From: Paludibacteraceae bacterium
GTDB lineage: Bacteria > Bacteroidota > Bacteroidia > Bacteroidales > Paludibacteraceae
Assembly (NCBI GenBank): GCA_024405875.1
Contig: JAKSOA010000020.1
Coordinates: 1 to 34,488, forward strand
DNA length: 34,488 nt
Direction: 5' to 3'
Position 1 is the stretch's first letter; each line of letters starts with the position of its first letter. The position numbers and the translations under genes were made by a program. This document shows, piece after piece, positions 4,556 through 34,393 of the stretch. A model generated the notes under the pieces. The model worked only from the letters and a program-made list of their open reading frames with translations, searched no databases and was not told where the DNA came from.

Positions 4556-4857
4556 GCCCGCAAGCACGCTTCTGCGTGCCGTGCGAAGCACGAATAGCGG
4601 CGATAGCCGCCAAATACGGAACAATCCCCACCAGCTCCACAAAACAAAAAATAGGGTTTCGGAATATCGAAACCCTTTGTTTTGTGGAGCTAACTCCTTG
4701 TTTGATTGGGGACACCCCAAACCCCGCGCTTCGCGGACCACAGAAGTGGTCTTGCCCAATGGGCGGCGGGCTAAAGCCCGCAAGCACGCTTCTGCGTGCC
4801 GTGCGAAGCACGAATAGCGGCGATAGCCGCCAAATACGGAACAATCCCCACCAGCTC
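4556..4857. repeat. ssrA-linked repeat array with an 82-bp perfect duplication
   Basis: Positions 4556-4637 and 4776-4857 are identical over 82 bp, 220 bp apart. Each copy contains a 29-nt GC-rich core (4564-4592, 4784-4812) made of two small stem-loops, a further hairpin (GGCGG/CCGCC-type, AATAGCGG...), and at its end an inverted copy of the tmRNA 3' end (4622-4644 and 4842-4857). Between them lies a diverged unit in the opposite orientation (4686-4755) that starts with GTGGAGCT. Together with the ssrA terminator this fills the gap between the Wzz-like gene and ssrA. No credible protein is encoded. Confidence 0.85.
4633..4691. terminator. Large terminator-like hairpin in the ssrA repeat array
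   Basis: Outer arms of 16 bp (4633-4648 and 4676-4691, AGCTCCACAAAACAAA and its complement) enclose an 8-bp inner stem GGGTTTCG/CGAAACCC with a 6-nt loop. T-rich runs follow the inner stem on both strands, so it could end transcription of the Wzz-like gene from the left and read-through from ssrA from the right. The outer arms repeat the end of the tmRNA acceptor stem. Confidence 0.6.
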
Positions 4858-4863
4858 TTAAAC

Positions 4864-4891
4864 AAAATAAGGTCCACAAGGACCTTATTTT
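4864..4891 (-). terminator. ssrA intrinsic terminator
   Basis: A perfect 12-bp stem (AAAATAAGGTCC/GGACCTTATTTT) with a 4-nt loop begins right after the tmRNA 3' end. On the minus strand it ends in TTTTGTTT. It is extended by an outer 16-bp inverted repeat (4842-4857 against 4895-4910) that takes in the tmRNA 3' end itself. Confidence 0.8.
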
Positions 4892-4892
4892 G

Positions 4893-5287
4893 TGGAGCTG
4901 GTGGGGATTGAACCCACGTCCAAACGAGGAAACGAAATGCTTTCTACACGCTTATCTTGGCTTTGATTTTAGTGGTACCCCAAGACCCAAGCCACCAAAG
5001 GTACCCTTAGCTTCAAATTTTTAACCCATTGGCTGAAGCCACCTCCGGGCGAGTCCCGATTTTTCCGCACCTCCTTGTTCAAACATCCTCGTGACTACGG
5101 CATTTGGGAGATGTCTTGGTCTGGCACCTTGTGCCGGAACTAAGCTGATCTACTATTATTCAATCAAGCAGCAAGAGCAAAATTATTTTCGCCAGTTATA
5201 TTTTGAAAGTTCAGATTAAAGAGCCTCCTTACAACGCTCTGCGTGCTTACACTGCGGTTCTGCCCGCTGTCAAAGCCTGTCAGCCCC
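4893..5287 (-). ncRNA. ssrA: tmRNA (transfer-messenger RNA)
   Basis: The 395-nt RNA rescues ribosomes stalled on broken mRNA. The 5' end GGGGCUG pairs with CAGCUCC near the 3' end, including one G-U pair, to form the alanine-tRNA-like acceptor stem, followed by discriminator A at 4893. The CCA is not encoded. The T arm (GTGGG TTCAATC CCCAC) and the hallmark 5' stretch GACAGGCTTTGACAGCGGGC are clear. The tag frame lies at 5164-5193. A one-piece (not permuted) tmRNA. It lies downstream of RNase Y on the same strand, with its own hairpin leader and terminator. Confidence 0.97.
5164..5193 (-). other. tmRNA tag-peptide reading frame
   Basis: Ten codons from the GGC resume codon read Gly-Glu-Asn-Asn-Phe-Ala-Leu-Ala-Ala-stop. 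The LAA end is the signal read by ClpXP-type proteases. Phe replaces the Tyr commonly found at position 5 in Bacteroidota tags. Confidence 0.92.
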
Positions 5288-5332
5288 CCTTTGTGAGTGG
5301 GTGCGATTTATAATCGCACCCACTCACAAAGG
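5288..5332 (-). repeat. Perfect 21-bp palindrome abutting the tmRNA 5' end
   Basis: Stem 5288-5308 pairs perfectly with 5312-5332, leaving a 3-nt loop. It ends exactly at the nucleotide before the mature tmRNA 5' end. A -7-like box (TACCTTTG, minus, 5327-5334) lies at its distal base. No T run follows it, so it is a poor terminator for the RNase Y gene and looks more like a structured leader of pre-tmRNA. Confidence 0.7.
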
Positions 5333-5342
5333 TAATGATTTT

Positions 5343-6884
5343 TTATTTCGCCACTGCGACGGAGCGGACCTCACGGATTACGGTGATTTTCACCTGTCCC
5401 GGGTAGGTCATCTCATTCTCAATGCGTTTTGCAATCTCACCGCTCAGACGTTCTGTCTCTGCATCGCTGACCTTGTCGGCACCTACAATGACACGAAGTT
5501 CACGTCCAGCCTGAATTGCGTATGTCTTTTGTACACCAGGATAACTCATTGCAAGGTTCTCCAAGTCATTTAATCTCTTAATGTATGCCTCTACAATCTC
5601 ACGGCGTGCACCAGGACGGGCACCTGAAATGGCATCGCAGGCTTGAACAATAGGGGAGATGAGTGATTGCATCTCAACCTCTTCGTGGTGTGCGCCTATG
5701 GCGTTGCAAATATCAGGCTTCTCACCACAACGTTGGGCTATTTTCATACCAAGCAGTGCGTGTGGAAGTTCCTGGTCCTCATCTTCAGCAACCTTTCCTA
5801 TATCGTGCAAAAGTCCGGCACGGCGTGCCTTTTTAGGATTCAATCCAAGTTCAGCGGCCATAACCGCACAGAGGTTTGCTGTCTCACGTGAGTGTTGCAG
5901 AAGGTTCTGTCCGTATGAAGAGCGGTATTTCATCTTACCTATGAGACGTACAAGTTCAGGGTGCAGACCGTGTACGCCAAGGTCTATTGTTGTCTTCTTT
6001 CCAATTTCAACAATCTCATCTTCAATTTGTTTTGTGATTTTGGCTACAACCTCCTCAATACGTGCCGGGTGAATACGTCCGTCTTGAACAAGTTGGTGCA
6101 GGGCAAGCCTTGCAATCTCACGTCTGATAGGGTCAAATGCTGAGAGTACAATTGATTCAGGGGTGTCATCAACAACAAACTCAACACCTGTGGCAGCCTC
6201 AAGCGCGCGTATGTTTCTTCCCTCTCTGCCTATGATACGACCCTTCATCTCATCATTTTCAATATGGAACACTGTAACTGAGTTCTCAATCGCCGTCTCA
6301 CTTGCCACGCGCTGAATAGACCTTATTATTATCTTCTGAGCCTCTTTGTTGCCATTCATTCTCGCCTCTTCCATAATCTCATTTGTGTAGGCGAGGGCTG
6401 CGGTCTGAGCCTCTGCTTTGAGTGACTCAATCATAGAATCCTTAGCCTCTTGTGCGGACATTCCCGCAACAGCCTCAAGTTTCTCAATGGCTTGCTTGTG
6501 CAGGCGGTCAAGTTCCTGGTCTTTCTTTTCAGCAATGTCCAATTGAGCCTCATAAGCATTTTTAAGTTGCTCTATCTCAGCCTCTTTCTTTACAAATCCC
6601 TCTTCTTGAATCTGAAGTTGTTTCTCTTTTTGGGCTATTTTAGCCTCCGCCTGCTGCAGTTTTGAACTGCGTGCGTTTGCCTGTTTTTCATACTCGTTCT
6701 TCAGTTGCAGGTATTTCTCCTTAACTTCAAGAAGTTTTGCCTTCTTTATTGCCTCAGCCTCTAATTTAGCGGTCTCAACAATATCTTTTGATTTTTTACC
6801 CTGGATAAACAGCACCAGCCCAATGGCTAAGCCGCATCCTATTATAAAGGCGACTACAATTAGTATTATAAAAGTTGTGTTCAT
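5343..6884 (-). CDS. rny: Ribonuclease Y
   Basis: A 513-residue membrane-anchored endoribonuclease that starts mRNA decay. One N-terminal membrane segment (about 4-26) is followed by a long Lys/Glu-rich coiled coil (about 30-170), a KH RNA-binding domain with the GxxG loop GRIIGREG (215-222), and an HD hydrolase domain whose metal pair is H360-D361 in LLHDIGK. Length and order match the family. Residues after the N-terminal anchor face the cytoplasm. Upstream on the same strand are zapA and a coiled-coil gene. The 97-nt gap to zapA contains a strong hairpin followed by T6, which could limit read-through into this gene. Confidence 0.96.
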
Positions 6885-6904
6885 AATATGTTATGTTTAA
6901 GTGT

Positions 6905-6963
6905 TAAAAAATGCAACTTTCAAAAACCATACCAATTAAACCGGTGGTTTGTGAAAATTGCAT
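6905..6963 (-). terminator. Terminator or attenuator between zapA and rny
   Basis: Arms 6911-6929 and 6945-6963 pair at 17 of 19 positions around a 15-nt loop. On the minus strand the stem ends in GCAT followed by a T run (6905-6910), then AACAC. It would end zapA transcription or attenuate transcription into rny, whose start codon is 21 nt further on. Confidence 0.65.
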
Positions 6964-6981
6964 TAAATATGTGAGGCTCAA

Positions 6982-7257
6982 TCAGAGTTTCCCCTCTTTT
7001 GACAGGGTCTGTTCAATCTTTAGTTCGGTTGCCTTAAGTTCTTCCTGCAGTTTGAAACTTCTAATCATAAGTTCATACGCCACACGGGAGAGGACCTGTA
7101 TGTTATTTGTATTATTACCAAGTTTGTTGGCCATATCAATGTAAATCATCCTCAGTCTTGACTCCGCTCTTCTGTAAACATCCTCCTTGTCGGCCTCAAT
7201 AGTGATTTGGATAGGCACCTCATTAACCTTTACTGTTATGACTCTGCTTTGACCCAT
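6982..7257 (-). CDS. zapA: Cell division protein ZapA-like
   Basis: A 91-residue cytoplasmic protein with the ZapA layout: an N-terminal beta-rich head (VITVKVNEVPIQITIEADKE), then an extended helix ending in a coiled coil (about 45-85). ZapA bundles FtsZ filaments at the division ring. It lies 8 nt downstream of a small coiled-coil gene that may be its partner. Recognition is from fold pattern and context rather than unique catalytic residues. Confidence 0.8.
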   Translation of the reverse strand: MGQSRVITVKVNEVPIQITIEADKEDVYRRAESRLRMIYIDMANKLGNNTNNIQVLSRVAYELMIRSFKLQEELKATELKIEQTLSKEGKL

Positions 7258-7265
7258 TCCAAAAT

Positions 7266-7547
7266 CTAATTATCACTTAGTTTAGCAATACAAACATCTA
7301 TCTGTGTCATAATATCAGTGATTTTTCTCTTTGCCTCACTGATATCTCCTTTTGACAACGCCACAGTTCCTTTGGCTATCTTTAGATTATCATATTTACT
7401 TTGCAATTCAACACTCTCCGCACTAGCCTTTTTAAGTTCGCTCTTGGTGAACTCCAATTCCTGACTCAACCTTTCAATCTGCGTGTTCTTCTCTTCTATG
7501 AGAGAGAGCAGTGCTTCTATTTTATCAGTCAAAATCATATTGGACAT
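7266..7547 (-). CDS. Small coiled-coil protein next to ZapA (ZapB-like)
   Basis: A 93-residue, almost entirely helical protein with heptad-like Leu/Ile spacing (LTDKIEALLSLIEEKNTQI onward). No enzymatic motif is visible. Its position directly upstream of zapA, and its size, suggest a division-ring partner analogous to ZapB, but that is inference. A -7 box (TATCTTTG, minus, 7579-7586) lies about 32 nt upstream, so this gene and zapA can be transcribed separately from rplS. Confidence 0.65.
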   Translation of the reverse strand: MSNMILTDKIEALLSLIEEKNTQIERLSQELEFTKSELKKASAESVELQSKYDNLKIAKGTVALSKGDISEAKRKITDIMTQIDVCIAKLSDN

Positions 7548-7578
7548 TGACTAGTATGGTCTAATGGTAAATTCGTCA

Positions 7579-7586
7579 CAAAGATA
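7579..7586 (-). promoter_or_regulatory. -7 box upstream of the zapB-like/zapA genes
   Basis: TATCTTTG on the minus strand, just downstream of the rplS terminator. No matching -33 TTTG was found at 19-21 nt. Confidence 0.45.
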
Positions 7587-7630
7587 AAATTTTTTCTTTA
7601 AAATACCACCGATGTCTCACTTGAAAAATA

Positions 7631-7665
7631 AAAAAACCGGCTCTTTTTTTAGAAACCGGTCTTTT
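7631..7665 (-). terminator. rplS terminator
   Basis: On the minus strand AAAAGACCGGTTT pairs with GAGCCGGTTTTTTT (some G-T pairs) around an A-rich loop and ends in a T7 run. It lies 20 nt after the rplS stop codon. Confidence 0.75.
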
Positions 7666-7684
7666 AAGTGATTCTATCAGAGGT

Positions 7685-8038
7685 TTAGATGCCCTTCTCT
7701 TTAATACGGGCTTTCTTACCGGTAAGTTCACGCAAGTAGTAAAGTTTAGCACGGCGTACTTTACCAATTTTGTTAACCTCAACCTTCTCAATGAACGGTG
7801 AGTTGAATGGGAATATACGCTCCACACCAACGCCTTCTGACATCTTGCGGACTGTAAATCTCTTTGTGTCACCGTGACCTGAAATCTTGATTACAACACC
7901 ACGATATTGCTGGATACGCTCTTTGTTACCCTCCTTAATCTTATAGGAAATAGTAACGGTGTCTCCACTTTTGAATTGAGGAAGTGTTCCCTCTTTGCCT
8001 GTGGCAAATGCCTCTTGGGCAACTTTAATTAAATCCAT
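7685..8038 (-). CDS. rplS: Ribosomal protein bL19
   Basis: A 117-residue protein at the interface of the two ribosomal subunits. [29 protein letters not shown] and [21 protein letters not shown] are the family core, and KARIKEK is the basic end. An upstream in-frame Met would extend the protein by 30 residues into the promoter-leader region; [11 protein letters not shown] at 8038 is the normal family start. It is transcribed from a well-formed promoter at 8126-8156 with a leader of about 80 nt and ends at a terminator at 7631-7665, so it is probably a single-gene unit. Confidence 0.96.
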
Positions 8039-8125
8039 TTCTGTATTTTTTAATGGTTTGACATATACGCGCAATATAACAGGTCCCTTAAAACGCCCTG
8101 ACAGAGATTGCGTCAAAACAGGGCA

Positions 8126-8156
8126 CAAAGATAGTGAAAATTAGGAACAGAACAAA
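8126..8156 (-). promoter_or_regulatory. rplS promoter
   Basis: On the minus strand TTTG (8153-8156) and TATCTTTG (8126-8133) are 19 nt apart. The -33 box lies inside the end of a 128-bp palindrome. Confidence 0.75.
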
Positions 8157-8267
8157 AAAAAACGAAGTTTTTTGCAAAAAAGAAGTGTTGTGTGGACTGG
8201 AAACCTGTTTACAAGTACACACAACACTTCTTTTGCAAAAATGGAACATTTTTGGTTCTGTCCTAAT
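8140..8267. repeat. 128-bp imperfect palindrome between rplS and recF
   Basis: The outer ends ATTAGGAACAGAAC (8140-8153) and GTTCTGTCCTAAT (8255-8267) are inverted copies. The inner arms 8171-8194 and 8218-8239 pair over 22 bp with a 2-nt bulge around a 23-nt loop. The arms between are diverged. No terminator T run and no coding potential are seen. No target duplication is evident at its edges. Confidence 0.8.
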
Positions 8268-8280
8268 GCATCCTATCTTC

Positions 8281-8394
8281 ACGAGTAAAACAAACGTAGT
8301 GAGTTTTACGAGTAAAGGTAGTGAAAATTGTATGGTTACGAGTAAAACAAACGTAGTGAGTTTTACGAGTAAAGGTAGTGAAAATTGTAGGGCT
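8281..8394. repeat. Two tandem copies of a 57-bp repeat
   Basis: Units 8281-8337 and 8338-8394 are identical over the first 52 nt. Each unit is itself a diverged pair of ACGAGTAAA...GTAGTGA...TT. An open frame of 88 codons crosses it but only mirrors the repeat (TSKTNVVSF twice), so it is not annotated as a gene. Confidence 0.85.
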
Positions 8395-8408
8395 ACCTAA
8401 TCTGCTTC

Positions 8409-8455
8409 TTGTGCAGTTTAGATGCTAAAAATCTCCTAATTTGTGCAGTTTAGAT
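8409..8455. repeat. Pair of 15-bp direct repeats upstream of recF
   Basis: TTGTGCAGTTTAGAT occurs at 8409-8423 and 8441-8455, 32 bp apart (about three helical turns). The second copy ends 14 nt before the recF -33 box. The placement suits a regulator-binding site, but no regulator is known. Confidence 0.7.
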
Positions 8456-8468
8456 AATTTCAAAAATA

Positions 8469-8500
8469 TTTGGCATTTCAATGGCTTAGCATTAAATTTG
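8469..8500 (+). promoter_or_regulatory. recF promoter
   Basis: TTTG (8469-8472) and TAAATTTG (8493-8500) are 20 nt apart. The ATG at 8470 lies inside the promoter, so translation must begin at 8509. Confidence 0.78.
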
Positions 8501-8508
8501 TACTCTCT

Positions 8509-9618
8509 ATGCTATTGAACAAACTATCAATATTAAATTACAAGAACATTGCTGAGGCTCAGTTGCGGTTCTGTCCTGGAATTAACTGTTTTGTTGGAAA
8601 CAACGGTGCCGGAAAGACCAATATTCTTGACTCCATATACTATCTTGCCTGTACCAAAAGCCGCAGCGGACTTATTGATTCTCAAGTGGTAAGGCACGGT
8701 GAGCAGATGTTTATGCTTGAGGGAGACTTTACCATTGAGGCTCCTGTTGAGGACAGCATAAAGATACAGGCCGGCTATAAGGCAGGCGGACGCAAGAGTT
8801 TCAGGAACTCAGGCAAGGAGTATCAGAGGCTGGCTGACCACATAGGACTTATACCTGTTGTAATTGTTTCTCCTTCAGACAGTTCTCTGATTTCTGATTT
8901 CAGTGACAACCGTCGTCGCTTCATTGATTTTGTAATATCACAATACAGCAAGGAGTACTTGTTACACCTTATTAAATATAACAAACTGCTTCAGCAACGC
9001 AATTCTATGCTGAAACAGCAGATTGATGATGACACAATGTATGAGGTGTGCGAGGCTCAGATGGCGGCATCGGGCAGTGAGATATACAAGGCACGTAAAA
9101 AATTTGTATCCGAGTTCTCAAAAGTGTTCAACGCATACTATAAAAAAATCTCCGATGACAAGGAGAGTGTCTCTATTGCATACAAGTCACAACTTGATGA
9201 CGGTAACTTTGAGGGGCAGTTATCACTTGCAAGACGGGTTGATTTGCTGTTAGGACACACTACAAAAGGCATTCACAAGGATGACCTTGAGATGATGATA
9301 GGTGAGTGGCAAATCAGGAAGGTTGGTTCACAGGGGCAGAACAAGACATTTCTCCTATCACTTAAATTTGCGGAGTTTGAGTATTTGAAACGCATAACAG
9401 GGCGTACCCCGATGTTATTGCTTGATGATATTTTTGATAAACTTGACGCCTCAAGGGTTGAGCAAATAATAAGGATTGTATCAAACGGTGAGTTCGGGCA
9501 GATTTTCATAACCGACACAAACCGTTCAAATCTGGATATTCTGCTTAAACGCTCTTCAAGTGGTGAGTTTAAGATATTTGATGTTGTTGACGGTGTGGTG
9601 ACGGAGGCAAGCGTATGA
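8509..9618 (+). CDS. recF: RecF DNA repair and replication protein
   Basis: A 369-residue SMC-like ATPase that helps load RecA at gaps behind stalled forks. Walker A is GNNGAGKT (30-37), the signature SQGQNKTFLLSLKFAEF is near the C-terminus, and Walker B is PMLLLDDIFDKLD. A longer reading from 8470 would begin within the promoter, so MLLNKLSILNYKNI is taken as the N-terminus, which matches the family. Its stop overlaps the DUF721 gene as ATGA, indicating translational coupling. The pairing of recF with a DciA-like gene is common in bacteria. Confidence 0.94.
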   Translation: MLLNKLSILNYKNIAEAQLRFCPGINCFVGNNGAGKTNILDSIYYLACTKSRSGLIDSQVVRHGEQMFMLEGDFTIEAPVEDSIKIQAGYKAGGRKSFRNSGKEYQRLADHIGLIPVVIVSPSDSSLISDFSDNRRRFIDFVISQYSKEYLLHLIKYNKLLQQRNSMLKQQIDDDTMYEVCEAQMAASGSEIYKARKKFVSEFSKVFNAYYKKISDDKESVSIAYKSQLDDGNFEGQLSLARRVDLLLGHTTKGIHKDDLEMMIGEWQIRKVGSQGQNKTFLLSLKFAEFEYLKRITGRTPMLLLDDIFDKLDASRVEQIIRIVSNGEFGQIFITDTNRSNLDILLKRSSSGEFKIFDVVDGVVTEASV

Positions 9619-9911
9619 AAAGAGTAAGTGTAACACCTATAGGAAAAATTCTATCCGCCTATTTTGATGAGGTTGGCATCGGGGAAAAGATTAGGGAGCA
9701 GCGGTTGCTTGACAATATGGAGAGCGTGCTTGGAAGTTTTATCTGCAAGTATGTGAACAGAAAGTATATTAATAACAAGGTGCTGTATATCTATGTAACA
9801 AACAGCGTTCTGCGAGGTGAACTCTCAATGAATAAACACTCTCTTATTGAGCGTCTGAATGCCTCAGTGTCATCAGATGTGATGGTGATAAAGGATTTGG
9901 TGGTTCGGTGA
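9615..9911 (+). CDS. DUF721 / DciA-like protein
   Basis: A 98-residue protein whose start codon overlaps the recF stop. It has the DUF721 pattern of a small KH-like fold: a helix (IGKILSAYFDEVGIGEKI), then NNKVLYIYVTNSVLRGELSMNKHSLIERLN, the last part typical of the family. DciA proteins assist loading of the replicative helicase DnaB. Whether this short Bacteroidota member does so is inferred from family and linkage to recF. Confidence 0.82.
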   Translation: MKRVSVTPIGKILSAYFDEVGIGEKIREQRLLDNMESVLGSFICKYVNRKYINNKVLYIYVTNSVLRGELSMNKHSLIERLNASVSSDVMVIKDLVVR

Positions 9912-9919
9912 TTTCCCAA

Positions 9920-9999
9920 CGTCATTTTGAGCGAAGCCGAAGGCGTAGCGAAAAATCTCACAATGATTATGAGGTCCTTCGCTGACGCTCAGGATGACG
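9920..9999. repeat. Dispersed CGTCATTTTGAGCG hairpin repeat
   Basis: An imperfect palindrome opening with CGTCATTTTGAGCGAAGC and closing with GACGCTCAGGATGACG, with arms meeting at CTCACAATGATTATGAG. A related copy lies at 14940-15006, and a derived tandem copy at 19009-19080. It fills the gap between the DUF721 gene and yggS. Confidence 0.85.
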
Positions 10000-10027
10000 A
10001 TAAGGTAGAGCATATAGTATTATATAT

Positions 10028-10696
10028 ATGATTAGTGAAAACATAAAACATATCAATGAATCTTTGCCGGCAGGTGTGCGGTTGGTGGCGGTGTCAAAGT
10101 TTAACCCCAATGAGAGCATATTGGAGGCTTATACGGTAGGGCAGAGGCTCTTTGGCGAGAGCCACGCACAGGAACTTGTGCCTAAGGCGGAGGCGTTGCC
10201 AAAGGATATAAGGTGGCACTTCATAGGGCATCTGCAAACCAACAAGGTTAAGTACATTGCTCCGTATGTGTCTTGTATAGAGTCAGTTGACTCTCTGCAT
10301 CTGCTAAAAGAGATAGACAAACAGGCGGCAAGGCACGGCAGAGTTATAAATTGTCTGTTACAGTTTCACGTGGCACAGGAGGAGACCAAGTTTGGCTTTT
10401 CAATTGATGAGTGCCGTGAAATGTTGCAATCTGATGACTTCAAAAATCTTAAAAATATATCAATAACGGGCGTTATGGGAATGGCATCAATAAGTGAAGA
10501 CGCCACACAAATAGAGCGTGAATTTACTCAAGTAAAGGAGACTTTTAACGCTCTCAAGGCTGAATTTTTTGCCGATAAGCCCTCTTTTTGTGAAATTTCA
10601 ATGGGTATGACCCACGATTACCCAATAGCCATACGCTGCGGAGCCACACTTATACGTGTTGGCAGCGGCATTTTCGGGGAGAGAATGTATAAGTGA
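10028..10696 (+). CDS. yggS: YggS/PLPBP family pyridoxal-phosphate homeostasis protein
   Basis: A 222-residue single-domain PLP-binding protein of the alanine-racemase-like fold. The PLP lysine is K24 in VAVSKF. FGESHAQELVPKA, WHFIGHLQTNK, GVMGMASISED and the phosphate-binding end RCGATLIRVGSGIFGERMY are all present. It buffers PLP and affects amino-acid balance; no catalytic activity is known for the family. It stands alone between a hairpin repeat and the ppdK promoter. Confidence 0.94.
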   Translation: MISENIKHINESLPAGVRLVAVSKFNPNESILEAYTVGQRLFGESHAQELVPKAEALPKDIRWHFIGHLQTNKVKYIAPYVSCIESVDSLHLLKEIDKQAARHGRVINCLLQFHVAQEETKFGFSIDECREMLQSDDFKNLKNISITGVMGMASISEDATQIEREFTQVKETFNALKAEFFADKPSFCEISMGMTHDYPIAIRCGATLIRVGSGIFGERMYK

Positions 10697-10705
10697 TAAT
10701 TTTTT

Positions 10706-10736
10706 TTTGTTCTGCGCTTAATTTTCACTATCTTTG
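10706..10736 (+). promoter_or_regulatory. ppdK promoter
   Basis: TTTG (10706-10709) and TATCTTTG (10729-10736) are 19 nt apart, about 48 nt before the ppdK ATG. Confidence 0.8.
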
Positions 10737-10783
10737 TCAGCCCTAAAGAATAGGAGTATAATTCACTTAATAATAAATTAGTT

Positions 10784-13504: not shown

Positions 13505-13520
13505 ATCCAATATTATATAT

Positions 13521-13558: not shown

Positions 13559-13572
13559 AGAATATTTCCAAT

Positions 13573-25177: not shown

Positions 25178-25194
25178 AAAAAATTCCTCCGTAA

Positions 25195-25292: not shown

Positions 25293-25308
25293 AATTATTA
25301 TTAATCTA

Positions 25309-25316: not shown

Positions 25317-25324
25317 ATGTTTTT

Positions 25325-25352: not shown

Positions 25353-25476
25353 ATTTTTTAAATTTAAACCATCAAAGCTGAATTATCTGTAATGGTGGCT
25401 GGTGAAAATGTCGTTTTAGTGGTATTTTTGCACTTTTAGTATAATATTGATAATCAAATAGTTGTATGTGAAAATA

Positions 25477-25508
25477 TTTGGAAATTGCTACAGGATTCAG
25501 TACCTTTG
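25477..25508 (+). promoter_or_regulatory. Promoter of the ORF6N-RhuM-PLD gene
   Basis: TTTG (25477-25480) and TACCTTTG (25501-25508) are 20 nt apart. The ATG at 25485 lies between the boxes, so translation must start at 25539. Confidence 0.82.
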
Positions 25509-25538
25509 CATATTCATAAATTGAGAAATATAACGGAT

Positions 25539-27156: not shown

Positions 27157-27165
27157 CAGTGAAGA

Positions 27166-27729: not shown

Positions 27730-28313
27730 TATGATTGAGCGGCTTCGCCTTCAGCGGCGGCCTTAGCCGCACGTGTTGACTTAACGCAAACTACAAGGCT
27801 CTCTTTGTTGTCAACTATCTCAATGTTAGGGAATGAGAGGTCTCCCGCCTTGATTGACTTGCCAACCTCAAGTTTCTCAACATTAACCACAACACACTCT
27901 GGTATGTTCTTGCAAATGCCCTTAACTTTCATTCTGCGCATCTCAAGAGAGAGTTTGCCACCAGCCTTGACACCAGCCGCAAGACCCTCGGTCTTAACAG
28001 GAACCTTGAATACAATAGGTTTCTTGTCATCAACCTCAAGGAAGTCAATGTGAAGAATGTTGTCTGTTACAGGGTGGAACTGAATCTCTTTGATAACTGC
28101 TGAGCAGTTCTTCTTACCAATTGTAAGTTTTACCTCAAATACCTCAGGGCTGTAGATTAGTTTGCGTACAGCGCTCTTTGATACTGTGAAGTTTGTGTTC
28201 TCTTTTTTGCAGCCGTAAAGAACGCAAGGGATTAAATCCTGCTTACGTAGTGCCGCACTGGCCTTCTGACCAAGTTCTGCTCTTGCAGAACCCTCTAATT
28301 CAAATGTTTTCAT
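27729..28313 (-). CDS. rplY: Ribosomal protein bL25, long (TL5/CTC) form
   Basis: A 194-residue protein: an N-terminal 5S-rRNA-binding L25 domain (about 1-90, [13 protein letters not shown]) and a C-terminal TL5 beta domain ([21 protein letters not shown]), with an Ala/Glu-rich tail. The leader of about 87 nt from a clear promoter contains an inverted repeat that could be a control hairpin. First gene of rplY-pth-S4 protein. Confidence 0.95.
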
Positions 28314-28351
28314 TTTGTATAAAATGTGTTACTCAAAGTGGGGCAGAGTTA

Positions 28352-28402
28352 CGCTTTTGACGGATGCGCCCCAATTCCCATCACACTATATTTTCAAAAG
28401 CG
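28352..28402 (-). promoter_or_regulatory. Inverted repeat in the rplY leader
   Basis: TCAAAAGCG (28394-28402) and CGCTTTTGA (28352-28360) can pair over 9 bp in the leader RNA, starting at about the predicted first transcribed base. Ribosomal-protein leaders often carry such control elements. Function not shown. Confidence 0.4.
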
Positions 28403-28406
28403 GGTG

Positions 28407-28438
28407 CGAAGATATAAAAATTTAAGCACACCACCAAA
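28407..28438 (-). promoter_or_regulatory. rplY-pth operon promoter
   Basis: On the minus strand TTTG (28435-28438) and TATCTTCG (28407-28414) are 20 nt apart. The -7 box has one mismatch to TAnnTTTG. Confidence 0.65.
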
Positions 28439-28443
28439 AAAAT

Positions 28444-28478
28444 AACAGTTAACTTTTCACTTTTCTTTTTTAACTATT
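28444..28478. repeat. Heptamer repeat (AACTTTT/CACTTTT type)
   Basis: Units AACAGTT, AACTTTT, CACTTTT, CTTTTTT, AACTATT at the end of thiL. It shares a run of more than 20 nt with the repeat at 23342-23383. Confidence 0.75.
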
Positions 28479-29506
28479 TAAAACCCCGTCCAGCCTTGTG
28501 CCTTTAGTGTCATTTCCGGACCTTCAGGAGTTACAAGAACTCTCTCATTAGGGTCTGATGTGGTGTAGCCTATCACCTTTATGCCTTTGAGTTCGTTCAC
28601 CTTCTCGTGCATTGATACGGGAACAGTGAAGAGTAGTTCATAATCCTCACCGCCGTTCAGGGCGACAGTCATAAGGTTCATATTGAACTCCTCAGCCTGA
28701 ATTGCAGTCTGGTAGTCAACAGGTATCTTCTCTTCATAAATACGGCATCCCACGCCACTCTGCTTGCAAATATGCAGAAGTTCTGATGACAGGCCGTCAG
28801 AGATGTCCATCATAGCCGTAGGCACAATGCCAGCCTTATCAAGTGTCTCAATTATATCTTTGCGAGCCTCTGGCTTCAGTTGGCGTTCAAGCAGGTATTC
28901 CTTGCCGGCAAAATCGGGCTGCATTCCCTCCTCACCGCCTTTCTCAAACACTCTCTTCTCACGTTCAAGTAGTTGCAGACCCATATATGCGGCTCCAAGA
29001 TTTCCGCTTACGCATATAAGGTCATTAGGCTGTGCTGTGTTTCGGCAAACAATCTTACCCTCAATGCCTTCTCCTATGCAGGTTATGCTTATGGTAAGCC
29101 CTGTGGCTGAGGCTGATGTGTCACCGCCAACCAAATCAACAGTGTGGCGCTCACAGGCAAGTTTTATGCCGGCGTACAACTCTTCCAAATCCTCTGTCTG
29201 GAACTTCCCACTCACGCCAAGCGATACTGTAATCTGCTTTGGCTTGCCGTTCATTGCGTAGATGTCAGAGAAATTGACCATAGCCGCCTTGTAGCCAAGA
29301 TGTTTAAGCGGGGTGTAGGTCAAATCAAAGTGTATGCCCTCAAGCAGCAAGTCAGTTGTTACAAGCACACGTGTGTTCTTTTTTGTGTAGTCAAGAATTG
29401 CGGCATCGTCGCCAACACCCTTGACGGTAGAGTCATTCTCTAATTTTAAGTCATTGGTTAGGTGGTCAATAAGACCGAACTCTCCAAGCGTTGATATATC
29501 TGCCAT
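28478..29506 (-). CDS. thiL: Thiamine-monophosphate kinase
   Basis: A 342-residue ATP-dependent kinase making thiamine diphosphate from the monophosphate. GVGDDAAIL near the N-terminus, VTTDLLLEGIHFDL, VNFSDIYAMNGKP, LVGGDTSAS, MMDISDGLSSELLHI and NGGEDYELLFTV are the full set of ThiL/PurM-fold motifs. The rplY promoter lies downstream, so it is probably a single gene. A TACCTTTG box at 29549-29556 (minus) is the likely -7 element. Confidence 0.95.
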   Translation of the reverse strand: MADISTLGEFGLIDHLTNDLKLENDSTVKGVGDDAAILDYTKKNTRVLVTTDLLLEGIHFDLTYTPLKHLGYKAAMVNFSDIYAMNGKPKQITVSLGVSGKFQTEDLEELYAGIKLACERHTVDLVGGDTSASATGLTISITCIGEGIEGKIVCRNTAQPNDLICVSGNLGAAYMGLQLLEREKRVFEKGGEEGMQPDFAGKEYLLERQLKPEARKDIIETLDKAGIVPTAMMDISDGLSSELLHICKQSGVGCRIYEEKIPVDYQTAIQAEEFNMNLMTVALNGGEDYELLFTVPVSMHEKVNELKGIKVIGYTTSDPNERVLVTPEGPEMTLKAQGWTGF

Positions 29507-29518
29507 TACAGGTGGGTA

Positions 29519-29539
29519 TTAATTGTTAGTTGTTAGTAA
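29519..29539. repeat. Heptamer repeat (TTAGTTG type)
   Basis: Units TTAATTG, TTAGTTG, TTAGTAA between thiL and the divergent ABC ATPase gene. Confidence 0.6.
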
Positions 29540-29544
29540 TTATT

Positions 29545-29576
29545 TTTGCAAAGGTACTCATTTATTGCTAAATTTG
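29545..29576 (+). promoter_or_regulatory. Promoter of the ABC ATPase-ruvB operon, overlapping a minus-strand -7 box
   Basis: TTTG (29545-29548) and TAAATTTG (29569-29576) are 20 nt apart, 9 nt before the ATG. Inside the spacer, 29549-29556 reads TACCTTTG on the minus strand, pointing to thiL. Confidence 0.75.
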
Positions 29577-29585
29577 TAGCACTTT

Positions 29586-30296
29586 ATGAGCATTGAACTT
29601 TTTAATATAAAGAAACGGTACGGGAATCAGGTTGTGTTGCCGTCGCTCTCAATGAGTGTGGGCAGTGGTGAGATAGTGGGATTCCTGGGTCCGAACGGGG
29701 CTGGTAAGTCAACCACTATGAAGATTATTACAGGGTTTGTTGTCCCTGACAGCGGTAGTGTGAGTGTGTGTGGCGTGGATATGCTCAAGAATCCCATCGA
29801 GGCAAAAAGGCGTATAGGTTATCTGCCGGAGCATAATCCTCTTTACCCAGATATGTATGTACGTGAGTATCTGGATTTTGTGGCTGGTGTCTATAAAATT
29901 CCGTCAAGGCGTGCAAGGGTTGATGAGGTTATAGAACAAGTTGGTCTGACATCGGAGTATAAAAAAACAATTAACTCACTCTCAAAGGGTTACAGACAAA
30001 GAACAGGATTAGCCGCCGCTATTGTCCATAACCCCGATGTCTTGATTTTAGACGAGCCCACAACCGGTCTTGACCCTAATCAGATTATTGAGATAAGGGA
30101 GTTGATAAAGAGTTTCGGGAAAGAGCGTACTGTGCTCTTCAGTACCCACATTATGCAGGAGGTGGAGGCTGTGTGTGACCGCTTTATAATACTTAACAAG
30201 GGTACTATAATGACAGATAAAAAGGTTTCAGACATAGAGAGGGGCACTCTGGAGAATCTATTCAGAACCTTGACCCTTGACCCTAATTATATATGA
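29586..30296 (+). CDS. ABC transporter ATP-binding protein (GldA-like)
   Basis: A 236-residue ATPase. Walker A is GPNGAGKST (35-43), the signature region is [20 protein letters not shown] (S-K-G-Y variant), and Walker B is [30 protein letters not shown] and [19 protein letters not shown] resemble the GldA/multidrug-exporter group. It is shorter than typical GldA (about 300 residues), and no gliding genes are nearby, so the substrate is unknown. Its stop overlaps the ruvB ATG as ATGA. Confidence 0.85.
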
Positions 30297-31327
30297 TGGA
30301 AGATTTTGATATACATAACAATGCCGCTGAGGAGAGCCGTGATTTTGAGAATGTGCTGCGTCCTCTGACTTTCTCTGATTTTCAAGGACAGAGCAAGATA
30401 GTGGAGAATCTCAAGGTCTTTGTAATGGCTGCACGTATGCGTAAGGAACCCCTTGACCACGTGCTTCTGCACGGACCTCCGGGTCTTGGAAAGACAACTC
30501 TCTCAAATATAATTGCCAATGAGTTGGGCGTAGGCTTTAAGATAACATCGGGGCCTGTGCTTGACAAACCTGGTGACCTTGCCGGTATTCTCACAAGCCT
30601 TGAGCCCAATGATGTCCTCTTTATTGATGAGATACACCGTCTGAGCCCTGTGGTTGAGGAGTATCTCTATTCGGCTATGGAGGATTTCCGTATTGATATT
30701 ATGATAGACAAGGGACCCAGCGCACGCTCTGTTCAGATAGGTCTTAATCCGTTTACACTTGTGGGTGCCACAACTCGTAGCGGACTTTTGACAAGTCCTC
30801 TAAGAGCGAGGTTCGGAATCAACTCACACCTTGAATATTATGATGCGGAGGTGCTGAAAAAAATAGTCAAAAGGTCCGCCTCAATACTTGATACACCTTG
30901 TTATGAAGATGCCGCTGTGGAAATAGCGAGACGCAGCCGTGGAACGCCGCGAATAGCCAACGCTCTACTGCGTAGAGTAAGGGACTTCGCACAGGTAAAG
31001 GGCAGCGGAACCATAACTAAGGAGATAGCCTGTTACGCTCTTGAGGCTCTGAACATAGACAGGTTCGGGCTTGATGAGATTGACAACAAGATACTTAACA
31101 CAATTATTGATAAGTTCTCCGGCGGACCTGTTGGAATTACCACAATAGCCACCGCTCTTGGAGAGGACGCCGGAACCATAGAGGAGGTATATGAGCCCTT
31201 CCTTGTTATGGAAGGCTTTATTAAACGTACTCCACGAGGGCGTGAGGTTACAGAACTTGCTTACAAGCATCTGGGCAAAACGCATAGAATGGGTGGAGTT
31301 TTTCAGGGAAGTTTGTTTGATGAATAA
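30293..31327 (+). CDS. ruvB: Holliday junction branch migration helicase RuvB
   Basis: A 344-residue AAA+ motor driving branch migration with RuvA. Walker A is GPPGLGKTT, Walker B is [10 protein letters not shown], sensor I is [10 protein letters not shown], the arginine-finger region is RARFG, and the C-terminal winged helix has [10 protein letters not shown]. Length normal. Second gene of the ABC ATPase-ruvB-flippase-DJ-1 run; the flippase begins 3 nt after its stop. ruvA is elsewhere. Confidence 0.97.
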
Positions 31328-31330
31328 TCT

Positions 31331-32818
31331 ATGTCAGAAGTAAAAACATTAGCGAAGGATACCGCAATATACGGATTGAGCAGCATACTGGGCAAGTTCC
31401 TTAACTGGTGCCTGGTGCCGCTCTACACATATATGCTCACAAGTAGTGCCGACTATGGTATAGTTACCAATCTCTACGCCTGGACGGCTCTTCTTCTTGT
31501 GATACTAACTTACGGAATGGAGACAGGTCTGTTCCGTTTTCTTAATAAGGGTGATGATAACCCCGATAAGGTTTACGGAACAACTCTGACATCACTATTT
31601 ACCACATCATTCCTGTTTGCTCTTATAGTGGCGTTGTTTGATAAGCCTATAGCAGCCGCTATGGGGTATGAGGCTCACCCTGAGTTTATTGGAATGCTTG
31701 GCGTTGTGGTTGCAATGGACGCTTTTGACGCTATTCCGTTCGCATATCTGAGGTATCTGAAAAAACCGTTGAAATTCGCCGCCCTCAAGTTGTTGATGAT
31801 ATTTGTCAATATCATTATGAATCTATTCTTCCTTGTGGGGTGTCCTGCCATTATGGATTGGAAACCTGAACTAATCTCTTGGTTCTACGACGCCTCATAC
31901 GGAGTAGGGTATGTATTCGTGGCAAACCTCATATCAACAACTTGTGTCACTCTTGCCTTGCTGCCTACTGTATTTTCTGTAAAGCCGCAGTTTGACAATG
32001 CTCTACTTAAGAGAATGTTGCGTTATTCTCTGCCGTTGTTGCTGCTTGGCATCGTGGGAATAATGAACCAGACTGTTGATAAGATTATATTCCCTTATCT
32101 GTATGATGACCCTGCGGAGGGTGCGGCGCAACTTGGCATCTACGGTGCCTGCTTCAAGGTGGCGATGGTTATGATGGTCTTTACGCAGGCTTTCCGTTAT
32201 GCGTATGAGCCGTTTGTCTTTGCAAAAAGCCGTGACGCTGACTCCACGCAGAGTTACGCCATTTCAATGAAGTATTTCCTTATAACATCATTCCTTATAT
32301 TCCTTGGCATCACGTTCTATCTTGACCTTCTGAAATATATTATCCGTGAGGACTATTGGGGCGGTCTGGTCATAGTGCCTATAGTGCTTTTAGCCTATAT
32401 ATTCCAAGGCGTCTATTTTAACCTTTCATTCTGGTATAAACTTAATGACAAGACACGGTACGGAGCCTATATGTCTCTGATAGGGTTTGTCATTAATGTC
32501 GCCCTGATAATAATTCTTGTGCCTATTATTGGCTATGTGGGTGCGGCGCTGGCGTCACTTGCAACCTTCTTTGTAATGATGATTATCTCATATTTCTGGG
32601 GACAGAAATATCTGCCTGTGGCTTATGATTTCAAATCAATAGGCATCTATTTTGTGTTTGCCGCGGTACTTTATTGCGTCAGTCTTCTGTTCTCCCATTG
32701 TATGCGTACATACGCAGGCATTGATAACCCGTGGATAAATATGGCGTTCAATACGCTGCTGTTGTTGCTATACTTAGCGTACTTAGTAAAAAAAGATTTA
32801 CCGATATACAAATTATGA
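31331..32818 (+). CDS. Wzx/MATE-like polysaccharide flippase
   Basis: A 495-residue protein with about 12-14 hydrophobic segments through its length and no catalytic motif. The opening (LAKDTAIYGLSSILGKFLNWCLVPLYTYML) is typical of the polysaccharide-biosynthesis (PST/MOP) exporter family, which flips lipid-linked sugars across the inner membrane. It ends overlapping the next start as ATGA. The substrate is unknown. rfbA/rfbD about 6 kb away supply activated rhamnose, but a direct link is inference. Confidence 0.88.
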   Translation: MSEVKTLAKDTAIYGLSSILGKFLNWCLVPLYTYMLTSSADYGIVTNLYAWTALLLVILTYGMETGLFRFLNKGDDNPDKVYGTTLTSLFTTSFLFALIVALFDKPIAAAMGYEAHPEFIGMLGVVVAMDAFDAIPFAYLRYLKKPLKFAALKLLMIFVNIIMNLFFLVGCPAIMDWKPELISWFYDASYGVGYVFVANLISTTCVTLALLPTVFSVKPQFDNALLKRMLRYSLPLLLLGIVGIMNQTVDKIIFPYLYDDPAEGAAQLGIYGACFKVAMVMMVFTQAFRYAYEPFVFAKSRDADSTQSYAISMKYFLITSFLIFLGITFYLDLLKYIIREDYWGGLVIVPIVLLAYIFQGVYFNLSFWYKLNDKTRYGAYMSLIGFVINVALIIILVPIIGYVGAALASLATFFVMMIISYFWGQKYLPVAYDFKSIGIYFVFAAVLYCVSLLFSHCMRTYAGIDNPWINMAFNTLLLLLYLAYLVKKDLPIYKL

Positions 32819-33354
32819 ATTACGTTTTTCTTGCTGACGGTTTTGAAGAGATAGAGGCTCTTGCCGTTGTGGATATTCTGCGTAGGGCAGACCTTGAGGT
32901 TGCCACAGTTTCAATTTCAAATGGCTACGATGTCATTGGCGCTCACGGCATTGAGGTTGCCGCTGATGTTATGTTGTCTGATATTGACGCCGATGTTGAG
33001 GACTATCTTATTCTGCCTGGCGGTATGCCCGGCTCTGATAATCTGCGAGCCTGTGCTCCTCTTTGTTCAATGCTTAAGTCTCATTTTGCTGGTGGCGGTC
33101 ACGTGGCGGCTATATGTGCGGCTCCCTATATTCTTGGTGATTTAGGAATCCTCAATGGTGCTGAGGCTATATGTTATCCTGGCTTTGAAGAGAGACTTGC
33201 CGGTGCCACTATATCAGAGAATCCGGTATGTAAGAGCGGAAATATAATTACAGGCAAGGGACCTGGTGTGGCTATGCAGTTCGCTCTCGCCATCGTGGAA
33301 GAGCAGTGCGGAGCATCGGTTGCCGCTGGGCTCAAGGCGGGGATGCAAATGTGA
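32815..33354 (+). CDS. DJ-1/YajL (ThiJ) family protein
   Basis: A 179-residue cysteine-dependent protein of the DJ-1/PfpI superfamily. LADGFEEIEALAVVDILRRA carries the conserved Glu (E14), and the nucleophile elbow is AAICAAP with C101. ILPGGMPGSDNL and GKGPGVAMQFALAIVE are typical. Relatives act as glyoxalase or protein-repair factors or oxidative-stress sensors; the activity here is not settled. The start at 32815 overlaps the flippase stop (ATGA); a longer in-frame reading would run inside the flippase gene and is rejected. Confidence 0.92.
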   Translation: MNYVFLADGFEEIEALAVVDILRRADLEVATVSISNGYDVIGAHGIEVAADVMLSDIDADVEDYLILPGGMPGSDNLRACAPLCSMLKSHFAGGGHVAAICAAPYILGDLGILNGAEAICYPGFEERLAGATISENPVCKSGNIITGKGPGVAMQFALAIVEEQCGASVAAGLKAGMQM

Positions 33355-33394
33355 AATTTTTTAACATAAAGTTATATTAAAGGGAAAATTGTTG

Positions 33395-33402
33395 TAACTT
33401 TG
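33395..33402 (+). promoter_or_regulatory. -7 box of the lipoprotein gene
   Basis: TAACTTTG, 41 nt before the ATG. The -33 region (GTTAT near 33371) is degenerate. Confidence 0.5.
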
Positions 33403-33443
33403 CGGAAGTTTATTACTAATGTTGTTTAACTAAAAATTTAAAA

Positions 33444-33896
33444 ATGAAAAAGATGAAAAGGTTATCTGTTTTTTTGAGCGTGTTCGCTATGTTTGCATTA
33501 GTGTCACTGACATCTTGTAAAAAGGTTAATGGAGAGGCTTCAAAGTATGTGGGCTCTTATTCTTTTAATAGCGTTGTAATGGAAGGAAATACAATGACAG
33601 CAACGGAATTTAAAGAGCTTATTAAAACAATGCCAGAAGGAAGTCAAAAGAAGAAACTGACAGCAATGGCAGATATGAGTTTTACGTTGACCGATAGTTA
33701 TAAGTTTAATGGGCACAATTTACCAGATCCATACGGCTCTTTTGGCGATTTTAGTGGTGAATGGGAGTATAGCGCCCCAACCAAAGAGATTATTATGATT
33801 AACAAGAATGAGGGCTTTCAGTGGACTTTTGATGCATTCTCTGATGGAACCATTGGTAAGGAAAATGGAGAATTTAAATTTATCTTGGCAAAGTAA
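33444..33896 (+). CDS. Small lipoprotein, lipocalin-like
   Basis: A 150-residue lipoprotein. The signal peptide (about 1-24) ends in a lipobox LVSLTSC, so Cys25 would be lipidated. The mature part, with GSYSFNSVVMEGN, FTLTDSYKFNGHNL, FSGEWEYSAPTKEIIMINKNEG and a final strand, looks like a small beta-barrel of the lipocalin-like type common in Bacteroidales. No ligand or partner can be named. It has its own -7 box and a terminator right after the stop. Confidence 0.8.
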   Translation: MKKMKRLSVFLSVFAMFALVSLTSCKKVNGEASKYVGSYSFNSVVMEGNTMTATEFKELIKTMPEGSQKKKLTAMADMSFTLTDSYKFNGHNLPDPYGSFGDFSGEWEYSAPTKEIIMINKNEGFQWTFDAFSDGTIGKENGEFKFILAK

Positions 33897-33918
33897 ATTG
33901 CCGCTTACAAAAAACGGG

Positions 33919-33951
33919 GGCTCTTTTTATACGAAAGAGCCTTTTATTTTT
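33919..33951 (+). terminator. Terminator of the lipoprotein gene
   Basis: GGCTCTTT (33919-33926) pairs perfectly with AAAGAGCC (33934-33941), loop TTATACG, followed by TTTTATTTTTTTG. Confidence 0.87.
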
Positions 33952-33981
33952 TTGTATGTATTGATATATTTATTACCTTTG
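33951..33981 (+). promoter_or_regulatory. tRNA-Ala promoter
   Basis: TTTG (33951-33954) and TACCTTTG (33974-33981) are 19 nt apart, 11 nt before the tRNA 5' end. Confidence 0.8.
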
Positions 33982-33992
33982 CGGTGCAAAAC

Positions 33993-34066
33993 GGGGGTTT
34001 AGCTCATCTGGCTAGAGCGCAACACTGGCAGTGTTGAGGTGACCGGTTCGAGTCCGGTAATCTCCA
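33993..34066 (+). tRNA. tRNA-Ala (anticodon GGC)
   Basis: A 74-nt cloverleaf without encoded CCA. The acceptor GGGGGTT pairs with AATCTCC, including G3-U70, the alanine identity pair. The D stem is GCTC/GAGC, the anticodon stem CAACA/TGTTG has loop CTGGCAG (anticodon GGC), and the T stem ACCGG/CCGGT has loop TTCGAGT. It has its own promoter and terminator. Confidence 0.96.
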
Positions 34067-34067
34067 C

Positions 34068-34107
34068 AAAATCAAGGGTTTCCACATTGGAAACCCTTTT
34101 TGATTTT
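34068..34107 (+). terminator. tRNA-Ala terminator, extended by an inverted copy of the tRNA end
   Basis: GGGTTTCC (34076-34083) pairs with GGAAACCC (34089-34096), followed by TTTTT. Outer arms of 15 nt (34059-34073 against 34102-34116) extend the stem into the tRNA acceptor strand. Confidence 0.8.
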
Positions 34108-34393
34108 GTGGAGATTGTCCTTTTTTATTGGGACACATTCCCAAACCTTTGCGTGCTTCGCACGGCACGCAGAAGCGTGCTTTTTTCGTTTGTGGAGATT
34201 TTTCCTTGTTTACGGGGAGTACCCCGAACCCCCTCGCTTCGCGGCACGCAGAAGCCCGCTTTTTTCGTTGGTGGAGATTAGTTCCTTTTTTATTGGGACA
34301 CATTCCCAAACCTTTGCGTGCTTCGCGCGGCACGCAGAAGCGTGCTTTTTTCGTTGGTGGAGATTTATCCTTGTGTGGGGCGTATCCCCAAAA
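34108..34393. repeat. Tandem palindromic repeat array downstream of tRNA-Ala
   Basis: Four units begin with GTGGAGATT at 34108, 34192, 34271 and 34357 (periods 84, 79 and 86; the last truncated). GTGGAGATT is the reverse complement of the tRNA-Ala 3' end. The first three units continue with a GGG...CCC hairpin and a GC-rich core; cores at 34152-34180 and 34317-34345 differ at one base and match those beside ssrA. Open frames across the array are repeat artefacts. Confidence 0.88.

Follow-up and report, generated by a model that had tools for sequence, protein, structure and literature searches.

Hairpin-rich repeats at ssrA and tRNA-Ala

Two RNA genes in the window, the whole stretch of 34,488 nt that was analysed, were each followed by an array of short repeats. 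At both genes the arrangement given in the initial annotation was present: an RNA end, a terminator, an inverted copy of the RNA end, a hairpin and a 29-nt core. The features at ssrA were as follows.

4892..5287, minus strand: tmRNA gene (ssrA, tag GENNFALAA), whose 3' end is the copied sequence (ARAGORN; Rfam RF00023)
4895..4910, minus strand: tmRNA 3' end CAATCCCCACCAGCTC, host arm A, 16 nt
4865..4890, minus strand: terminator hairpin separating the two arms (folding)
4842..4857, minus strand: element arm A' of unit 1, a perfect 16-nt inverted copy of the tmRNA 3' end
4784..4841, minus strand: unit 1, with head TTCCGTATTT, hairpin 1 (4817-4831) and the 29-nt core made of hairpins 2 and 3 (4784-4812); R1 model match 4767-4819, 61.2 bits
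4692..4751, plus strand: unit 2, in opposite orientation, with head CTCCTTGTTTGATT, hairpin 4708-4718 and core variant 4725-4751; R1 model match 4720-4768, 33.5 bits
4633..4691, no strand: palindrome separating the head of unit 2 from that of unit 3, in which extra copies of the tmRNA end, AGCTCCACAAAACAAA (4633-4648; inverted 4676-4691), flank a terminator-like hairpin
4564..4637, minus strand: unit 3, with arm 4622-4637, hairpin 4597-4611 and core 4564-4592; R1 model match 4547-4599, 62.9 bits

Beyond unit 1, the ssrA array consisted of two more units, one of them inverted, and reached to about position 4556. The features at tRNA-Ala were as follows.

33993..34067, plus strand: tRNA-Ala(GGC) (ARAGORN)
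34059..34075, plus strand: tRNA-Ala 3' end and trailer, host arm A
34076..34096, plus strand: terminator hairpin separating the arms (folding)
34100..34116, plus strand: element arm A', a perfect 17-nt inverted copy
34117..34180, plus strand: unit 1, with head GTCCTTTTTTATT, GGG-CCC hairpin 34130-34142 and core 34152-34180; R1 model match 34145-34197, 66.8 bits
34191..34259, plus strand: unit 2, with arm TGTGGAGATT (34191-34200), hairpin 34214-34225 and core variant 34233-34259; R1 model match 34228-34276, 26.7 bits
34270..34345, plus strand: unit 3, with arm GGTGGAGATT (34270-34279), hairpin 34295-34307 and core 34317-34345; R1 model match 34310-34362, 61.4 bits
34356..34389, plus strand: unit 4, truncated, with arm 34356-34365, a head and hairpin 34377-34389, and without the core

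Three of the six cores at the two loci were identical, one differed by a single base, and two were shorter variants. Folding of the two stretches as single-stranded DNA against dinucleotide shuffles gave z = -10.1 in one and z = -17.6 in the other. The arm at tRNA-Ala tracked each species' own tRNA end, reading TTTGTGGAGATT in genome G000 and TGGTGGAGATT in G013. For the tRNA comparison, 100 stretches were taken from a longer tRNA list; the 19 rows with a head and no arm contained false positives of the head pattern, and this count was not used.

A repeat family with host-specific arms

Short hairpin-rich DNA repeats of this kind occurred in dozens of copies per genome in some rumen and gut bacteria. 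Within one Bacteroidales genus, 14 of 16 genomes (one draft per species, 78-100% complete) contained the family, with at least 140 model matches in total; scoring covered 150 first-look candidates in each genome, which makes these counts lower bounds. No description of such a family was found in the literature searched. The repeat unit consisted of the head CCTTGTTTAT and three or four hairpins, with the head pointing to the gene edge. Directly before the head there was often a reverse-complement copy of nearby host sequence, 15-26 nt long in the strong cases. The copied sequences were RNA 3' ends or, more commonly, the regions of start or stop codons, and the element was found facing the gene on either transcription strand. 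The same element carried other arms at many protein genes. The earlier proposal of a single repeat family, its core shared and its ends specific to the host site, was supported. The family had also been tied to RNA genes, and this restriction was not borne out; only 15 of 83 units were labelled at RNA 3' ends, and most cores lay away from RNA genes, one of the outcomes that had been named in advance as refuting. One relaxed-pattern match (L053) looked like coding sequence and was dropped. The arms of two units, L140 and L171, may copy non-transcribed DNA.

The match between arm and neighbour was above chance. After removal of 13 units without 260 nt on each side, 12 with an upstream unit and 11 that were redundant, 83 of the 119 units were compared. 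The inverted match to a unit's own upstream sequence had a median of 30, versus 13 for swapped upstreams, and exceeded the pooled 99th percentile of the swaps (28) in 49 of the 83 units, although the independent number is lower since several units are orthologous to each other; the other 34 had no strong arm. Swapped controls reached 35 because the arms of the start-codon class resemble one another, so that single matches in this class are weaker evidence than the total. The arms were polar, being found on the head side and rarely on the tail side. Tail-side matches above the same percentile were seen in 6 of 83 units with a window of 80 nt, and in 5 and 4 of 83 when repeated at 62 nt, the width of the head window. 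None of 226 random positions exceeded it. The swap, tail and random-position controls thus supported the original claim that the arms reproduce, inverted, the edge of the neighbouring gene, and spoke against the outcome named at that time as fatal to it, namely that arms match the gene no more often than chance.

Occupied and empty sites

The comparison of occupied and empty sites, which had been proposed as a check, separated the two at ssrA. Among 13 readable genomes, the longest exact inverted copy of the last 20 nt of the tmRNA was 8-16 nt in the five with the element versus 3-6 nt in the eight without it, so the arm was present only where the element was present. At metA (12 loci, all but L220-L222 read), the element was found only in G000, the genome of the window, together with an inverted copy of that genome's own metA end. 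Eight element-free orthologues were read, and seven of them had an inverted match of at most 9 nt, in AT-rich sequence. The element-free metA end of G003 carried a palindrome with an 11-nt inverted match, which implies that copying can happen without the element. In G012, the metA stop codon was overlapped by the next gene. At dapB, each of G000, G011 and G015 had the element, with an arm identical to the start region in that genome; this region of G015 differed from those of G000 and G011, and its arm was likewise its own. G014 had neither element nor arm at dapB. A reverse-complement copy present in occupied sites and absent from related empty ones, as expected of template switching, was therefore found at ssrA, at dapB with G014 as the empty site, and at metA with the exception of G003.

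In one gene, the arm came from two sources, the 3' UTR in G015 (L154) and the CDS end in G011 (L198). A 2-nt indel was common to both sides of orthologous arms (L185 versus L142 and L204). When 506 start and stop sites without a listed unit nearby were searched, an equally strong palindrome was found in five, three of which were element-linked (L135, L225, and L228) and two of which came from one G003 locus.

Start-codon and stop-codon classes

About 19 of the 49 strong cases belonged to the start-codon class after labels had been corrected by eye (L008, L067, L165, L166, and L194 were moved from "CDSend" to this class, and L163, labelled "CDSstart", was moved to the stop-codon class). The distance list held 25 rows, of which L078 and L163 were set aside as stop-class, leaving 23. 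In 18 of these, 47-52 bp separated the ATG of the gene from its copy, and in three, 82-84 bp; L165 (61) and L142 (70, or 46 by eye with its other CAT) fell outside both groups. This geometry is not predicted by random fold-back and suggests a function or an insertion rule. Part of the start-class loop was alike in different genes, reading about ATATTCTGCAAT..TCAAGG, chiefly in G014 and G015; a loose form of this motif lay near units in 7 of its 22 occurrences, the units making up 12% of the sequence examined. Reading of several start-class units by eye gave no common frame for a small ORF from the copied ATG. Taken by itself, the constant geometry argues toward a structured RNA regulator, opposite to the base-pairing data below.

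No terminator lay between the arms in the start-codon class, where the copied strand was antisense to the mRNA, and the loops of the stop-codon class were 2-5 nt. These two classes are not produced by a purely terminator-primed fold-back, a part of the suggested origin that was not supported; template switching or fold-back in general was retained as a possibility.

Base pairing and the origin of the arms

Among 1000 arm pairs from 55 units, 966 were Watson-Crick, 8 G-U, 12 A-C and 14 other. Hairpins 2 and 3 were read from alignment A2, built from 98 of 105 sources with 113 of the 119 units (L129, L131, L132, L183, L187, and L206 were excluded). Of its 1104 cells, 175 were changed on both sides and 5 on one, 8 were unpaired, and G-U was nearly absent (5 cells). 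Element hairpins and some arms thus changed on both sides together; simultaneous changes of the kind expected from arm homogenisation were found in hairpins 2 and 3 and in the L185 indel. Covariation tolerating G-U on a fixed strand, expected of a structured RNA regulator, was not seen in the arms, where G-U pairs were fewer than A-C pairs and both strands occurred.

The best explanation, which we regard as moderately probable when taken as a whole, is that a short, gene-free interspersed DNA repeat, built as a chain of small perfect hairpins, spread in one Bacteroidales genus, and that the head-side host strand would fold back on itself and be copied, leaving the reverse complement of the adjoining gene edge before the head in many copies. 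Copying would proceed by fold-back priming at the DNA level or by short-range template switching, either of which fits the arms better than RNA selection because no G-U bias was found. It may accompany insertion of the element next to a free 3' end, or it may follow insertion, upon stalling of synthesis at the element hairpins. The scattered copies and the occupied and empty sites suggest that the element itself moves, rather than being spread by other recombination. Template switching at the element hairpins alone would predict two-sided arms, which counts against this explanation.

Short palindromic repeats are usually regarded as family-constant sequences dropped into a genome; here, many copies open with the mirrored sequence of the site they occupy, even where this is coding. 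With more than 100 natural units at occupied and empty sites, it becomes possible to study how long perfect palindromes arise at genes of bacteria, through a mutation process that is usually observed only as single events. Should the geometry at start codons prove functional, this process would also give rise to new regulatory hairpins, each fitted to the gene beside it. It is conceivable, though doubtful, that the repeat is a self-tailoring mobile element, whose machinery would, at every insertion, fold back the broken host strand and build from the gene edge a fresh site-specific arm, a new complementary end for each site, with the measured geometry keeping essential genes working.

It is unlikely that selection on RNA maintains the complementarity. 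The arm at a start codon would then hide the start, a competing hairpin formed with the head (CAAGGAAAA versus TTTTCCTTG) would free it as a translational switch, and the arm at a 3' end would lengthen the terminator stem. The constant ATG spacing, the partly similar loops and, in L003, L066, L067, L068, and L075, pairings that by eye exclude each other are in line with such a switch. The scarcity of G-U pairs in the arms and in hairpins 2 and 3 is not, and it is not evident what function a 20-nt arm would have at a stop codon where genes are closely spaced, as at metA and the gene after it. Moreover, with elements facing genes on both transcription strands, no single RNA orientation suits both classes.

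An RNA-templated origin is still less probable. Self-priming by a reverse transcriptase at RNA 3'-end hairpins, or snap-back of the cDNA at the 5' end of an mRNA, would yield a product that is then linked to the element and integrated. In its favour are the many arms located at the 3' ends of RNAs and close to mRNA starts, the orientation of both classes, which snap-back at RNA termini would account for, and the lack of a general target-site duplication (see below). Against it, some of the stop-codon cases lie at closely spaced genes, between which an RNA end would not be expected. Least probable of all is the use of pre-existing palindromes at gene edges as preferred insertion sites, for which the natural palindromes of terminators and the G003 metA palindrome could be cited, given that arms were absent from all eight element-free ssrA loci and palindromes from seven of eight element-free metA ends and all but five of the 506 unit-free sites.

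Relation to known elements

Template-switch mutations and the homogenisation of inverted-repeat arms are described as producing reverse-complement repeats in one event, arms that are fixed or homogenised, and several changes together (PMC8794818; PMC8604942), and the present arms resemble such products. The mutations described in those accounts lie in existing genes and stems, whereas the present copies are tied to the head of one interspersed repeat. Perfect inverted repeats overlapping coding sequence are likewise reported for Nematomorpha mitochondria, but those palindromes lie inside genes, and the account does not describe an interspersed repeat family for them (PMC6649704). Mitochondrial double-hairpin elements are adjacent repeated hairpins, those of Allomyces being described as without flanking duplications and with an unknown mover; hairpins 2 and 3 have that form and are likened to them by form alone (PMC2800124). 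Unlike these, the present repeat is bacterial, lies at gene edges and has a head arm copied from its neighbour.

REP elements of the REP/RAYT type are palindromes with GTAG/CGTC tags, and the present repeat shares several of their features, being short and GC-rich, numerous in each genome, mostly extragenic, often paired and often downstream of genes (PMC3733652). Copies of the flanking gene are not among the features described in that account. Unlike in REP/RAYT, the tags were rare, GTAG and CGTC lying by the hairpins in 3 and 3 of 119 units, and neither in G000 nor in the four element-richest genomes did the search for PF01797 detect a Y1 (RAYT-type) transposase, although a gene may have been missed in these drafts. 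PF01797 was present in 2 of the 16 genomes, G001 and G006, with at least three and at least one model matches, neither of them element-rich. Mobilisation by a co-occurring RAYT transposase, for which a check had been proposed, was rejected on the evidence of these drafts. The terminal inverted repeats constant within a family and the target-site duplication that mark a MITE were not found, and the ends varied from site to site. Direct flank repeats exceeded the 99th percentile of the swaps in 13 of 83 units, several of them being array repeats or larger local duplications. A general target-site duplication was rejected: the gene edge recurred as a direct repeat beyond the element at L072 (by eye), L047, and L189, and a longer duplication was present at L009 and L203, but such repeats were not general.

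The element at ssrA and tRNA-Ala and its spread

The window is contig 13 of a draft genome (G000) of 1.85 Mb that is 78.7% complete. Re-reading of the sequence together with RNA gene calls bore out to the base the layout that the initial annotation had proposed at ssrA and tRNA-Ala. Beside both genes the RNA end is followed by a terminator hairpin, an inverted copy of the RNA end (the “arm”) and a head with the sequence CCTTGTTTAT or a similar one; hairpin 1 and a core formed by hairpins 2 and 3 come next. The single-strand DNA folds of the two stretches were far below those of shuffles (z -10.1 and -17.6). The supposed restriction to RNA genes was not borne out. Hairpin 2 had 11 exact copies on 8 contigs of the same genome, and the arms of the copies read there were copied from, among other sites, the starts of dapB and of a fabD-like gene and the metA end (the names dapB, fabD, metA, murC, argG, and prfB are readings of translations, not database results).

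A covariance model of the element, built from 24 copies, gave, at an E-value cutoff of 0.1, at least 140 matches spread over 14 of the 16 genomes of the genus (G000-G015). The counts per genome were lower bounds because 150 candidates were scored in each: 21 in G000, 27 in G011, 20 in G014, 32 in G015, 10 in G013, 8 in G004, 7 in G005, 5 in G012, and 0-3 in each of the rest. A search of 105 sources yielded 119 units. An 84,980-species collection, from which records very close to the window's genome may be absent, contained 14 stretches with an exact match to the pattern of hairpins 2 and 3, all of them in records titled Bacteroidales or Paludibacteraceae. The records bearing it were three relatives with a shared core (uncultured Bacteroidales RUG163 and RUG243, and Paludibacteraceae Horse_feces163) and RGIG8195, a water-buffalo rumen record (genus unchecked). 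Literature searches, with few subscription journals and no bioRxiv preprints within reach, turned up no description of such a family.

Many arms match the adjoining gene edge

Each of 83 non-redundant units with 260 nt on both sides, some of them mutual orthologues, was scored by its best inverted match immediately preceding the head. The median score was 30, against a median of 13 (99th percentile 28, maximum 35) when units were scored with the upstream halves of other units. The proposed match between arm and neighbour was thus above chance, with 49 of the 83 units exceeding 28 on the head side and none of 226 random places in the same loci doing so. For the tail, the number of the 83 units above 28 was 6 when the window measured 80 nt and 5 or 4 at the width used for the head. 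The strong arms were 15-26 nt long. Among gene edges near a unit, 6/37 stops and 7/21 starts scored above 28; away from any listed unit, 2/288 stops, both in locus L219 of G003, and 3/218 starts did, all three starts (L135, L225, and L228) being actually element-linked.

Automatic labels corrected by eye assigned the 49 strong cases to start-codon regions (about 19), CDS ends (10), and RNA 3' ends of tRNAs, tmRNA, and 5S rRNA (10); 10 were unlabelled, some of which had arms copied from plain intergenic sequence (L140, L171). The element faced the gene irrespective of gene strand. In the CDS-end class the stop codon was mostly in, or a few bases from, a loop of 2-5 nt (offsets -8 to +11 in 11 rows), and in the RNA-end class the terminator was the spacer between the arms. 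In the start class, which had 23 cases, the distance from the gene ATG to the mirror ATG was 47-52 bp for 18; three others lay at 82-84 bp, one at 61 and one at 70 (46 with another CAT). A functional leader switch at starts may also exist and would be compatible with an origin by copying. Comparison by eye with Bacteroidetes promoter motifs led nowhere.

Direct copies of gene edges were also seen. The element stood before genes starting MYNNYFF (murC-like) in L046, L047, and L189, where the near side had the mirror copy and the far side a 21-nt direct copy of the start, exact in L047. In L009 and L203 it was flanked on each side by the end of a prfB-like gene, about 45-60 bp long, a direct edge duplication.

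Occupied and empty sites

Among 14 full tmRNAs in the 16 genomes, the 3' flank could be read for 13. Within 150 nt, the final 20 nt of the tmRNA recurred in exact inverted form over at most 16 nt in G000 and 8 nt in G004, G008 (a contig-end site judged by eye), G011, and G013, all with the element, whereas it was 3-6 nt in the eight genomes without it (G002, G003, G006, G007, G009, G010, G014, and G015). The arms extended into the trailer in all five element-bearing genomes.

For metA, 9 of 12 orthologues were read. G000 alone carried the element, and there the metA end of that genome recurred in inverted orientation (a 13-nt exact run, longer allowing a 1-nt gap). Seven others had inverted matches of at most 9 nt, the 9 being AT-rich sequence of G013. 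The G003 orthologue (L219) lacked the element and had at its stop a palindrome arm of 11 nt, a perfect palindrome with TTGCTTCGCAA in the middle and no model match, so mirror copies of gene ends can arise without the element. Just upstream of dapB, model matches were found in G000, G011, and G015, each with an arm identical to its own start region; both the start region and the arm of G015 differed from those of G000 and G011. G013 kept a short palindrome, CATAAATTTTTA gaa TAAAAATTTATG, and G014 had neither element nor arm.

DNA or RNA level

In the arms of 55 units, 1000 pairs contained 8 G-U and 12 A-C, so for neither strand was there evidence of selection at the RNA level. Hairpins 2 and 3 showed 175 double versus 5 single changes, with 8 unpaired, in 1104 cells. 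Orthologous arms shared a 2-nt indel (L185 versus L142 and L204). At one locus in two species the arm came from the 3' UTR (L154) or the CDS end (L198), and the third orthologue (L077) had the core without head or arm. Template switching creates reverse-complement repeats and fixes stem pairing, according to PMC8794818, and homogenisation of inverted-repeat arms is described in PMC8604942.

tRNA genes and a second palindrome family

Among 169 tRNA genes read in 7 genomes, 15 had an inverted copy of the tRNA end (at least 8 nt within 90 nt); for a control segment of the tRNA the figure was 2/169. The head was also present at 11 of the 15; tRNA-Phe had a divergent head by eye, L302 belonged to another palindrome family, and two looked like chance matches, including one from G007, a genome without a model match. 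After tRNA-Lys in L017, a variant element seems, by eye, to have landed within an arm that was already there, so that GTGATC is now separated from CCCGGTGGGGCT.

A second, different family of nested palindromes was seen directly after tRNA-Pro, Ser, Val, and Tyr at these loci:

L019, L022, L026, L037, L043, and tRNA loci among L239-L319

Its core was like CGTCAAGAG-TTTA-CTCTTGAAAG, with the tRNA trailer as the outer stem. It followed tRNA-Pro(tgg) in G000, G011, G013, G014, and G015, and in the stretch at tRNA-Val of G015 (L302) the end of the tRNA was repeated in inverted form over 12 nt.
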